Source: Acidobacteriota bacterium (GTDB lineage Bacteria; Acidobacteriota; Thermoanaerobaculia; Multivoradales; J023). Taken from it: a DNA stretch of 64,000 bases. The stretch is from NCBI GenBank assembly GCA_029263395.1, contig JAJCXO010000229.1, positions 1 through 64,000 of the forward strand, in the 5' to 3' direction. Of the stretch, positions 46,876 to 62,345 are shown piece by piece (positions within the stretch are counted from its first letter, which is position 1; every line of letters starts with the position of its first letter). Under the pieces are notes generated by a model. That model searched no databases. It saw only the letters and a list, made by a program, of their open reading frames with translations, and was not told the DNA's origin. The translations under genes were made by a program, and so were the position numbers.

Positions 46876-47089
46876 AAAAGCCTCCAAGGTTGGATGTCGA
46901 ACGAAGGGCAGGATCCGTTCCAAGGGCTAGATAGCGTGTGTCACTCAAAACTCAGCGCCCAAGTCACCCTGAAATCGCGATCACCCTGATTGGCGGCAAG
47001 TGACGCTCGACTCCCTCAAAGGAATCGCAACAATGTCGCGAGATCCGACGCTGCCAGACGTCAGGACCGAACAAGAGCCCAGAAAATCC

Positions 47090-47487
47090 GGTCCACAGAG
47101 TCCATGACCGTGATCCACGAGCGGTAAATACGGGTCACTCGGCCTGTGACCGTGATCTATTAGGTAAAAATACGGGTCATCCGATCCGTGACCGTTATCT
47201 ACAGGTGAAAATACGGGTCACGGGGTCTGTGACCGTTATCTACAGATCAAGAATAACGGCCACGGAGATTGTGGCCGTTATTTTCAGAACGAAATACTGG
47301 CCACTTATCTTATGACCGTTATTCCTTGATACATAACACTGGCCACGTGACCTGTAACCGTGACTGTTGAATTAAACATCACGGTCATACTGTCTTTGCC
47401 CGTGACCACTAGATGTATTTCTTGATCCCATGCCTATAACAGTGATCTCACCAGCTCCCATCCTGGTCATATCATCCGTGACCAGGA
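47090..47487. repeat. Array of about ten 42-bp tandem repeats, each with a GGTCAC-N7-GTGACC dyad
   Basis: Left half-sites (TGACCGTKAT) start at 47105, 47147, 47189, 47230, 47272, 47313, 47355, 47397, 47437 and 47479: steps of 42,42,41,42,41,42,42,40,42. Right half-sites (ATACGGGTCA) precede the next unit. The dyad GGTCAC-N7-GTGACC is exact at 47133 and 47216, near-exact (GGTCAT) at 47175 and 47465, and changed on both arms to GGCCAC-N7-GTGGCC at 47258. The step is about four helical turns, so all sites face one side of the DNA. It fills the region between the large secreted-protein gene and the zf-CGNR gene; 46876-47089 shows nothing else. Confidence 0.93.
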
Positions 47488-47577
47488 CAACTGGCCAACA
47501 ATCCTAGCCGCATGGCTAGCGGCCATGATTGATCCAGGTGTCTTGCCACCTCACCCCACATCCGGTACCTTCGCAGG

Positions 47578-48192
47578 ATGCAAGACTTCAGGATTCGCGA
47601 AGCCAAACGTTCGCGCCAGCGCAAAGCAGCACGGAAGAAGGTGAAGCAGGCGCCGGGAGCGCTCGAAACGGTCCGGAAGTTCGTCAACACGATGCGGGGA
47701 AAAGCCGTGGTCCGGGGTAAACATGTCGACGAACTAGCCACTCCGGCACAGCTCGGACGCTGGTTCGAGCACCAAGGATTACTCGCCACCGGAACCACTC
47801 TCAATGCGGTGGAACAACAACGTGGACTCGATCTGCGCCAAGGGCTGCGCGCTCTGATCCTCGCCAACACCGGTCTCGAGCCCAACCCGGAAACGCTCCA
47901 ACGGCTGGCGGTTGCCACAGCGGCCGGCCGGTTTGTGCTGCGCTTCGAAGCTGGCGTCCCGGCCGGCTTCGGCCCCGCTTCCAACAGCTTCGACGACGCC
48001 CTCGCGGCTCTCGCCGCAGTCGTCGTCACGGCTCAGCTCGAAGGCCACTGGTCACGGCTCAAGGTCTGTCAAGAGCAAAACTGTGGGCAAGTTTTCTTCG
48101 ACAGCGCGCAGAGCTTGACCGGCAGGTGGTGTTCTCCCCAATGTGGTGACCGGGCGCGGGCGGCGATCTATCGCCGCCGCCGTCGTCGGTGA
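47578..48192 (+). CDS. zf-CGNR / ABATE-domain putative transcription regulator
   Basis: A 204-residue protein. Very basic N terminus (REAKRSRQRKAARKKVK), then an ABATE-like helical domain (about 25-150), then a CGNR-type zinc finger: CQEQNCGQVFFD, then RWCSPQCGDRARAAIYRRR, with four Cys. CGNR proteins are predicted DNA-binding regulators of unknown ligand. The 42-bp array ends about 90 bases upstream, so it is the natural candidate to bind it. The histidine kinase starts 28 bases downstream, suggesting co-transcription. Confidence 0.87.
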   Translation: MQDFRIREAKRSRQRKAARKKVKQAPGALETVRKFVNTMRGKAVVRGKHVDELATPAQLGRWFEHQGLLATGTTLNAVEQQRGLDLRQGLRALILANTGLEPNPETLQRLAVATAAGRFVLRFEAGVPAGFGPASNSFDDALAALAAVVVTAQLEGHWSRLKVCQEQNCGQVFFDSAQSLTGRWCSPQCGDRARAAIYRRRRRR

Positions 48193-48220: not shown

Positions 48221-49321
48221 GTGAGCCGAGACTTGGAAAGTGCCTTCCACGCCATCCCGGATCCGATCGTGATTGTCGGCGTCGACGGCTTGGTTCGACG
48301 GGTCAATCAAGCGTTCTGCCAACGGTTCGAGAGCACCCAAGAGGACGTCCTTGGCGTCGATGCTGCGAGCCTGATCTTCGACTCGGAGATGGACAGCAAC
48401 TCGGTGCCGAACAGCAACACGGTGCAGAACAGCAACACGGTGCAGAACTGCTTACCGTCCGCCGAGGGTCCGTTTGTCGACGAGTGGCGAAATCTTGCAA
48501 TTCCGGGCGTCTTCGAGGTGATCTGCCAGCCGGTCGAGCTCGACGGCGAGTCCGGCACGATCTACATCCTACGCGACGTCACCGACCGCGACATCGCCGA
48601 GGCGGAGCGTGAGGCCTTGCTTCGGCAGATGGAAGACAAGAACGCCGAGCTCGAACGTTACACCTACACTGTCTCCCATGATCTCAAGAGCCCATTGGTG
48701 ACCATCAAGGGTTTCCTCGGGTTGGTCGAGAGGGATCTTCTGACTGGCGATATGGAACAGCTGAAGTCGGACATGGCTCGCATCGCCGCCGCCGCCGATC
48801 AGATGGCACTGCTACTCGACGAGCTGCTGGCCCTGTCGCGGGTCGGACGTATGGTCAACCCGCCGGAGGACGTCGCTCTGCGGACGCTGGCTCAGGAAGT
48901 GGTCGAGCTGTTGTCGCACACACTCCAGGAAAAGGTTGTGGAAGTGCGGATCGCCGATGACTTACCCACCGTGCGCGGCGACCGTCTACGCCTACTCGAG
49001 GTGCTCCAGAACCTGATCGAGAACGCCGCCAAGTTCATGGGAGATCAGGGCACACCCAGGATCGAGGTCGGTACTTGTCGACGTCACGACGAAACGTTGT
49101 GGTACGTCCGTGACAACGGCATCGGTATCGCGCCCGAATACCACGATCGAGTGTTCGGACTGTTCGACCAGCTCGATCCGACCCGCGGCGGTACCGGGGT
49201 TGGCCTGACCCTGGTGAAACGGATCGTCGAGGTCCACCGCGGACGCGTCTGGGTCGAGTCCGACGGGCTGGGGCAAGGCTCGAGCTTCTACGTTCAGATG
49301 CCCAACCTGGCGATTCATTAG
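48221..49321 (+). CDS. Cytoplasmic PAS-domain sensor histidine kinase
   Basis: A 366-residue histidine kinase with no membrane segment. The GTG at 48221 is preceded by AAGGA. PAS domain (about 5-120; AFHAIPDPIVIVG, then IYILRDVTDRD), HisKA with His153 (YTVSHDLKSP), and HATPase with N box (NLIENAAKF), G1 (DNGIGI) and G2 (GGTGVGLTLVKRI). An 18-bp unit occurs three times in the PAS (48391-48444; DSNSVP, NSNTVQ, NSNTVQ). It may phosphorylate the response regulator at 49546, 224 bases downstream. Confidence 0.92.
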   Translation: MSRDLESAFHAIPDPIVIVGVDGLVRRVNQAFCQRFESTQEDVLGVDAASLIFDSEMDSNSVPNSNTVQNSNTVQNCLPSAEGPFVDEWRNLAIPGVFEVICQPVELDGESGTIYILRDVTDRDIAEAEREALLRQMEDKNAELERYTYTVSHDLKSPLVTIKGFLGLVERDLLTGDMEQLKSDMARIAAAADQMALLLDELLALSRVGRMVNPPEDVALRTLAQEVVELLSHTLQEKVVEVRIADDLPTVRGDRLRLLEVLQNLIENAAKFMGDQGTPRIEVGTCRRHDETLWYVRDNGIGIAPEYHDRVFGLFDQLDPTRGGTGVGLTLVKRIVEVHRGRVWVESDGLGQGSSFYVQMPNLAIH

Positions 49322-56943: not shown

Positions 56944-57789
56944 GTGGCCAACGCCAAACCAGAACCACCGGAGAAGGTAGCGCCGGAAGAGCCGGCGTCC
57001 GAAGAGCCAACGTCCGAAACCGCGGCGTCTGAAAGCACGGCGTCCGAAGACACGGCGTCCGAAGACACGGCGCCCGAAGACACGGCGTCCGAAGACACGG
57101 CGCCCGAGGAGACGGCGCCCGAGGAGACCGTGCCAGCCGAGACCGTGCCAGCCCAAGTGAAGGCGCCCGCAAACAACAAACCAGCTCGAGCCGTCGCGCC
57201 GAGGCACAACATGGCAGTGCCCGAACAATGCCTCACCTTCACTCTGGGCGGTGACGAGTATGGCGTCGGTATCCTGCAGCTCCGAGAGATCGTCGAATAC
57301 GAAACCCTCACCAAGGTGCCGTCCACCCCGCCGTGGATTCGCGGCGTAATGAACTTACGCGGCACCGTGGTACCGGTGGTCGACCTCGCCGCCAAGTTCG
57401 GCTTACCCGAAACCGAAATCGCGGCACGCACCTGCATCGTCATCGTCGAGGCTGATCTCGACGGCGAGTCGACACCGATGGGAGTGATGGTCGACACCGT
57501 CGTGCGGGTGCTCGACCTGTCACCCGAAAACATCGAGGAGCCCCCTACCTTCGGCACCCGGGTCCACGTCGACTACCTGCTGGGAGTCGGTAAAGTTGAT
57601 GACCAACTCGTGCTGGTACTCGACATCAACCGCGTTTTGTCGATCGACGAGTTGTTGGAAGTGGCCGCAACACCCGACGCCGCGGCGGCCGACACTGCGA
57701 CTGACGACACTGCGGCTGACGACACTGCGGCTGACGATGCTGCCGGAAGCAAAACCTCCCCAGGCACCGAGCACGAGTCGATGTCGTGA
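56944..57789 (+). CDS. cheW: CheW adaptor with repetitive N- and C-terminal tails
   Basis: CheW couples receptor to CheA. Core domain about 95-235: CLTFTLGGDEYGVGILQLRE, VPSTPPWIRGVMNLRGTVVP, VMVDTVVRVLDLSPENIE, DDQLVLVLDINRVL. The 281 residues are well above the usual 150-170: the N-terminal ~75 residues are Glu/Pro/Ser/Thr-rich from a 15-bp unit repeated about ten times (GAAGACACGGCGTCC type, about 57021-57150), and the C-terminal tail carries three 15-bp units (57691-57735; DTATD, DTAAD, DTAAD). GTG start four bases after the MCP stop; the end overlaps cheR by four bases. Confidence 0.93.
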   Translation: MANAKPEPPEKVAPEEPASEEPTSETAASESTASEDTASEDTAPEDTASEDTAPEETAPEETVPAETVPAQVKAPANNKPARAVAPRHNMAVPEQCLTFTLGGDEYGVGILQLREIVEYETLTKVPSTPPWIRGVMNLRGTVVPVVDLAAKFGLPETEIAARTCIVIVEADLDGESTPMGVMVDTVVRVLDLSPENIEEPPTFGTRVHVDYLLGVGKVDDQLVLVLDINRVLSIDELLEVAATPDAAAADTATDDTAADDTAADDAAGSKTSPGTEHESMS

Positions 57790-61976: not shown

Positions 61977-62195
61977 CAGGAGCACCCGAACCTCCCACGA
62001 CCGGCTGTCGAAGGCAATTCGTCACCTCGACGATTCGTCGAGACGAACACCATCATTCAGTCCTTAAAACTCTGATTCCACAACAGATGCGAGTAAGTGC
62101 GAGTACTTTCTCAGCGCTCTCGATAGGTCTTCGTTGACTTCGGTATCCTAGACTCGTACTACTGAAGAGGTCGACGATGCGCGTTCAACTCAAAA

Positions 62196-62345
62196 CTCAT
62201 CGGCTGGTTACCGATCGGGGCGTTCGAGCCCATCGCCCTCGGCACCGCCGTCCTGCTGCTGGTGTTGGTGGCACTCCCGGCCCTGCTACTGCCCGCCCGT
62301 CGCGCCGCTGCCGTCGACCCGGCGTCGAGCTTGCGGGCGGATTAG
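62196..62345 (+). pseudogene. C-terminal remnant of an FtsX/MacB-type ABC permease
   Basis: Fifty codons without a start encode LIGWLPIGAFEPIALG, then a helix AVLLLVLVALPALLLPA, then RRAAAVDPASSLRAD and a stop. This is the conserved end of MacB/FtsX permeases (PARRAAxVDPxxxLR), common in acidobacterial orphan permeases. Everything upstream of the last helix is missing, so it is a decayed or deletion-truncated gene. Confidence 0.7.

Follow-up and report, generated by a model that had tools for sequence, protein, structure and literature searches.

A 42-bp-phased dyad array beside an ABATE-CGNR gene as a candidate cognate platform in a proposed genus-wide system of paired proteins and sites

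An array of about ten dyad units phased at 42 bp (positions 47078 to 47490, no strand assigned) lies beside an ABATE-CGNR gene in the window, the 64,000-nucleotide stretch of an Acidobacteriota genome analyzed here. We regard it as probable (roughly 0.6) that this array is the cis-linked cognate platform of the adjoining protein, which is predicted to bind it, and that the locus is one of a genus-wide system of CGNR proteins and 42-bp arrays. Nearly every zf-CGNR gene found in two genomes lay beside an array of its own, which looks like an undescribed paired protein-site system; no account of such arrays was found among the open-access papers listed for CGNR/ABATE proteins and for repeats in Acidobacteria.

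Results

The preliminary description of this DNA had reported a phased array of ten dyad units next to a CGNR gene. The array is real: between 47076 and 47495, the autocorrelation at period 42 was 0.46, while 1,000 dinucleotide shuffles, scored at any period from 20 to 80, reached 0.35 at most. Left half-sites were located at 47090, 47133, 47175, 47216, 47258, 47299, 47341, 47383, 47424, and 47465. These ten positions keep the 42-bp phase, with steps of 43, 42, 41, 42, 41, 42, 42, 41, and 41 bp, i.e., a range of 41 to 43 instead of the 40 to 42 given earlier. The dyad GGTCAC-N7-GTGACC, which had been ascribed to each unit, is exact only in the units at 47133 and 47216. The unit at 47258 reads GGCCAC-N7-GTGGCC, the units at 47175, 47299, and 47465 fit the dyad with small deviations, and those at 47090, 47341, 47383, and 47424 show a poorer fit. 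Eight units were accepted in a PWM walk of the array. Its best-conserved core comprises six units (47120 to 47369, no strand assigned) with the consensus ATACGGGTCAC-N7-GTGACCGTTAT and half-site centers about 17 bp apart. The pattern GGYCAY-N7-RTGRCC matched six times in the 64-kb window, each time inside the array, and a BLAST search of the window's own genome for a second copy, which the preliminary description had looked to, returned none. Two units (window 47193 to 47245) contain TTATCTACA, one base off the DnaA box consensus; a DnaA-box function was rejected because the units of the ortholog described below lack this sequence. Further tandem repeats in the window have 18-bp units (48393 to 48448, within a histidine kinase frame) and 15-bp units (56993 to 57122).

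The array sits between divergent genes and is separated from the CGNR start codon by a leader of about 90 bp (47491 to 47577, plus strand), in which a simple scan detected no sigma-70-like promoter. The proposed array binder is a protein of 204 amino acids (47578 to 48192, plus strand) with an ABATE domain (PF07336, residues 34 to 150; 46.8 bits, cut-off 24.4) and a zf-CGNR domain (PF11706, residues 160 to 202; 51 bits, cut-off 24). The zinc finger and a basic C-terminal tail are encoded at 48055 to 48183 (plus strand), and the family motif reads CGDR here. Across the zinc finger, the protein matches PDB 3h0n. Pfam revealed only ABATE and zf-CGNR, with no nuclease, transposase, or ParB domain, and neither PADLOC nor NCBIfam gave a match; a defense-system reading was rejected given zero PADLOC matches. 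The 3h0n protein, one solved member of the CGNR family, is a dimer whose putative DNA site is built by both monomers, and in the cited sections the structure paper proposes DNA binding with the target unnamed (PMC2954205). Jann_2411 and related ABATE-CGNR regulators (PDB 3h0n) share the domain pair PF07336 and PF11706 with the window protein. They differ in that no site array is described for them in those sections, and 42 CGNR loci of other genera lack one.

Absence of the array beside orthologous CGNR genes in close relatives had been named beforehand as a refuting outcome; the opposite was observed. G001, the single congener compared with the window's genome (G000), is 86% complete and encodes an ortholog with 69% amino acid identity. 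As in the window, an array lies directly upstream of this gene; it has eight units with steps of 41 to 43 bp, and in both genomes the array is found about 90 to 100 bp 5′ of the gene. The ortholog's units retain the window core but read CTGGCCAC-N7-GTGGCCGTGAT. The surroundings are collinear in the two genomes and comprise an FG-GAP gene, GAF, CheD, and then matches as far as CheB. In G000, the array and the CGNR gene have the FG-GAP gene on one side and GAF on the other; in G001, both lie past CheB and adjoin sequence equivalent to window 62062 to 62208. Gene and array are thus shifted by about 14 kb relative to the neighbors common to G000 and G001, and this different place amid collinear surroundings indicates that they travel as a unit. 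Two short dispersed repeats lie beside the ortholog's array (L033:3698-3750 and L033:4110-4160). One of them has the stems GAGGGG..CCCCTC and GTCCC..GGGAC. G000 contains roughly twelve or more copies of each, and they form a REP-like class distinct from the 42-bp arrays.

We then counted arrays at the other zf-CGNR genes, which were collected by PF11706 (at least 14 in G000, with 150 of 292 candidates scored, and at least 12 in G001, with 150 of 274). An array was called at a period of 40 to 44 within an 84-base window, at most 900 bp from the gene and with a score of at least 0.53. Such dyad arrays were found near 24 of the 26 zf-CGNR genes compared to 12 of 128 control genes, and raising the cut-off to 0.65 left 19 of 26 and 11 of 128; both comparisons treat genes as independent, though the CGNR genes are paralogues. 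Since linkage is partly inherited through duplication of the module, these genes do not represent independent trials. The controls were genes of 150 to 300 amino acids from two G000 samples subjected to the identical procedure. Sample A is non-random, as most of its contigs were matched by a dispersed repeat, and sample B was picked by contig number; genes were called as the longest open frame. Because arrays were common in these samples, the reading that 42-bp arrays mark CGNR genes alone was rejected and the linkage was recounted as the above case-control comparison; with arrays near 12 of 128 control genes, one adjacency by itself says little. The tie between a phased multi-site array and the CGNR gene, as suggested by the preliminary description, is supported.

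The same numbers bear on a neutral minisatellite that came to lie near the gene by chance. The high variability of the units and the abundance of 42-bp arrays, including those near control genes, would agree with such an origin. Neutral repeats do not, however, fit a dyad geometry with a period of 41 to 43 that is maintained across unrelated sequences, the 24/26 linkage, and the presence of the array at the ortholog, and we consider this origin highly improbable. In one of the two array-less cases (G000_C156), a 42-bp dyad array lies about 6 kb downstream on the contig (L037:16200-16380); the reading frame of the other (G001_C160) contains a stop. The L037 array is made up of four 42-bp units, all of them near-perfect; their arms are long and the spacer is short. 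Downstream of each of three further CGNR genes (C49, C536, and C38), two arrays with different dyads lie in succession (L084:5227-5640, L089:5414-5790, and L090:351-728). Elsewhere in the phylum, none of the 42 CGNR loci examined outside the genus (11 from one search, 30 out of a longer list of matches from another, plus G008) carried a 41- to 43-bp array; L020 and G008 gave weak periodic signals of coding type. An all-against-all comparison of neighbors revealed no partner gene shared by the majority of CGNR loci; the matches were confined to blocks of orthologous genes and some common families.

The position of the arrays was informative with respect to an ordinary multi-operator, in which the CGNR protein would sense a ligand and repress or activate transcription, with the array only its promoter-proximal operator. 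The location about 90 to 100 bp upstream of the gene in the window and at the ortholog, between divergent genes in the window, would suit an operator, and in the cited sections the family is proposed to act as a signal-dependent regulator (PMC2954205). However, 21 of the 24 linked arrays are located 3′ of the stop codon of the CGNR gene (by a sign test that treats the paralogous genes as independent), and about two thirds of these downstream arrays have a convergent gene beyond them, as judged by simple ORF calls. The three upstream arrays belong to the window gene, its ortholog, and C799, which are neighbors in the protein tree. Single sites were not enriched either: a slightly longer version of the window dyad pattern matched once outside the array in the whole genome, compared to five matches for the reversed control pattern, so that stray window-type operators were not above control level. 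With most arrays downstream, an operator alone seems a poor fit, and we judge this explanation unlikely.

Next, we considered whether the dyads are duplex sites or hairpins. From one unit in which both arms had changed together, the preliminary description concluded that the dyad is maintained as a pair. The joint change is present in the unit at 47258, but the units at 47299 and 47341 carry GGCCAC without a matching right arm, and the arms of the arrays proved to vary independently. In 36 of 45 arrays, namely, those with at least four units, the within-unit arm complementarity was 79.4% of 1,680 cells compared to 77.9% with right arms shuffled between units. The pooled complementarity was not attained in any of 500 shuffles; the excess amounts to 1.5 points and was obtained with the dyad axis picked to maximize pairing, which biases the comparison towards pairing. 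Arm changes were compensated in 28 cells and one-sided in 273, and the one-sided changes yielded G.T (72) and A.C (80) about equally. One-sided changes with equal G.T and A.C fit independently read half-sites, unlike a transcribed hairpin; the arm variation is therefore of the duplex type and not of the hairpin type. This leaves little credit for an array of RNA hairpins, i.e., a type III toxin-antitoxin-like element or tandem terminators, even though the units can be drawn as stem-loops and a terminator scan returned six minus-strand sites (three of them array units) compared to 0.8 in shuffles. Type III toxin-antitoxin arrays are RNA antitoxins that act with a nuclease, and they resemble the window locus in that short units are repeated in tandem next to a gene. 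They differ from it in that the variation found here does not fit RNA pairing. No RNA-type covariation was seen, no Rfam family was detected near the window array, and the protein has no nuclease domain and no PADLOC or NCBIfam match.

Half-site sequences differ between paralogues (they include GGTTAAGC, GGTCAAGC, GGTCGAGC, GATCAAGC, ACCGGAAG, GACGATTC, ATGAAC, and GGTCAC), while their spacing is constant at about 17 and 25 bp. For the best dyad of each array, half-site centers were 15 to 19 or 23 to 25 bp apart in 33 of 45 arrays, and dyad axes follow each other at 21-bp steps. The sister pair C143/C189 has a period of 43 and a longer inner spacer. In a maximum likelihood tree of 66 CGNR proteins, the array-bearing ones fell into two separate clades (19 of 19 and 5 of 7 members with arrays), and the array-less CGNR proteins of other genera were placed between them. 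A supported 10-gene clade shares half-sites of the type NNT(C/T)(A/G)AGC; C80 and C622 have GGCAAAGC variants of it. Protein and half-site distances were correlated (Mantel r = 0.71, p = 0.0006; 12 G000 paralogues with half-sites chosen by eye); C134 was omitted because its protein is truncated. Half-sites thus follow the protein tree, i.e., both co-diverge.

Arrays of this geometry were also found without a CGNR gene. In 716 kb of G000, 12 non-coding arrays had a period of 41 to 44 compared to 3 with any other period in the range of 20 to 80. They are located in L137, L139, L140, L145, L151 (twice), L184, L191, L193, L194, L195, and L199; the L145 array lies within a long open frame but is common to L195. 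From these 716 kb, we estimate about 180 arrays per genome in many sequence families, most of them without an adjacent CGNR gene. Five of the 12 (one of L151 and those of L184, L191, L194, and L199) belong to a CGNR-linked family, six (L137, L139, L140, L145, L193, and L195) match no CGNR-linked array found, and the remaining one has a 44-bp period. Either CGNR genes were missed at such arrays or this geometry also serves other proteins. The idea that orphan arrays mark another regulator was rejected, since ten neighboring proteins that were scanned are miscellaneous. In 231 kb of G002, G004, and G006, where about four would be expected, no non-coding 41- to 44-bp array was found, which is weak evidence for their absence; the single 42-bp match in this set (L214) is irregular and lies in a long frame.

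The preliminary description had likened the window array to the sopC centromere of the F plasmid. SopB, the cognate DNA-binding protein, is encoded near sopC. F parS, with twelve 43-bp tandem repeats that carry inverted-repeat motifs in the cited sections (PMC6238139), may be regarded as the nearest analogue in layout. However, about 180 arrays of the same geometry and with many unrelated sequences, as estimated for one genome, do not fit partition in number or variety. Moreover, the genes flanking the array include no ParA ATPase and no ParB-type protein on either side, as the preliminary description had correctly noted, and the CGNR protein has no ParB domain by Pfam. Of all readings, we give a partition site the least credence.

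At unrelated loci, the likeness of array copies is mostly confined to the array. The arrays of L184, L191, and C30 are 87 to 93% alike, and their homology ends near the array ends. The site GGTYAAGC-N9-GCTTRACC (at most one mismatch) was present 36 times in G000 and 17 times in G001, compared to 1 and 0 for control patterns, and was found at CGNR genes as well as in arrays without one. The C143-type site GATMAAGC-N10-GCTTKATC occurred 12 times in G000: beside the CGNR gene C143, in arrays in C130 and C36, and once as a single site; no CGNR gene was found beside the C130 and C36 arrays (for C36, within 3 kb). G001, at 86% completeness, contained no C143-type site and no detectable C143 ortholog, a case of co-absence. 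The orphan array of L193 is kept at the orthologous place in G001 (C448), and that of L194 is absent from G001 together with about 1.9 kb around it.

This dispersal resembles that of a selfish RAYT/REP-like system, in which the arrays would be non-autonomous dispersed repeats and the CGNR protein the element's own protein. Near-identical array families at unrelated loci with homology ending near the array ends, gene-linked and orphan copies, and the joint appearance of gene and array at a new place would all be expected of such elements. Co-divergence and co-absence likewise match the signature reported in the cited sections for RAYT genes and REP repeats, which co-diverge and occur together (PMC2817692). 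By analogy, RAYT/REP may be the nearest known system in logic, as it likewise links a gene to its own palindromic extragenic repeat with scattered copies and several families per genome. The differences are that the protein here is ABATE-CGNR, with no HUH tyrosine transposase-like protein and no nuclease or transposase domain, and that the dyads vary as duplex half-sites with independent arms, in tandem arrays of a single direction with a fixed 42-bp period, instead of forming hairpins. In addition, the L193 orphan stayed at its orthologous place, and the combination of a gene beside its repeat and dispersed copies was found for several paralogues but not for the window array. We therefore consider a RAYT/REP-like origin doubtful. 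The system has the defining protein feature of neither RAYT/REP nor ParB/parS.

Discussion

For a cis-linked platform bound by the adjoining CGNR protein, we infer binding, cooperativity, and a function of the arrays along the following lines. A CGNR dimer would read two inverted 8-bp half-sites about 17 bp apart via its zinc fingers, with one dimer per dyad. As 42 bp corresponds to four helical turns, all dimers would be placed on one face of the DNA, where they could load cooperatively and cover some 400 bp as a nucleoprotein structure. The half-site would have drifted separately in each paralogue, with the spacing preserved. At the window locus, the upstream array would also set the expression of the protein itself (autoregulation). 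At most other loci, where the array is found at the 3′ end of the gene, the loaded array might act as a border or roadblock; alternatively, it could serve there to bring dispersed arrays of the same family together in a hub.

A more far-reaching model, which we put forward only tentatively, is a private-address chromatin within one genus. At least a dozen paralogous zinc-finger proteins would each read their own 42-bp array family at their own and other loci, with about 180 arrays marking gene borders and perhaps tethering loci, and protein and address would co-evolve in cis. For ABATE-CGNR proteins, the platform reading predicts a concrete target and comes with a ready-made specificity series. 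As the half-sites of a dozen paralogues are legible next to the genes, the recognition code of the zinc finger can be tested directly. Binding of the arrays, if it occurs, would make them a bacterial nucleoprotein geometry (42 bp, four turns) fixed across unrelated sequences, which a growing protein family maintains for the most part at the ends of genes.

Other proteins may be linked to such arrays as well. One family of 41- to 42-bp arrays terminates with a block resembling TAGTTAGTCCATTYGACTC and was found at L242:6490-6720, L243:4426-4630, L244:4961-5140, L245:1883-2110, L248:2150-2290, and L193:3579-3870. The L244 array is closely followed by a small gene (MDQKAIRSKLTRRVMTLLRQEMKTAGHG...), and a relative of this gene lies about 2 kb from the L242 array; besides CGNR, its product is a possible second partner protein of arrays of this kind.
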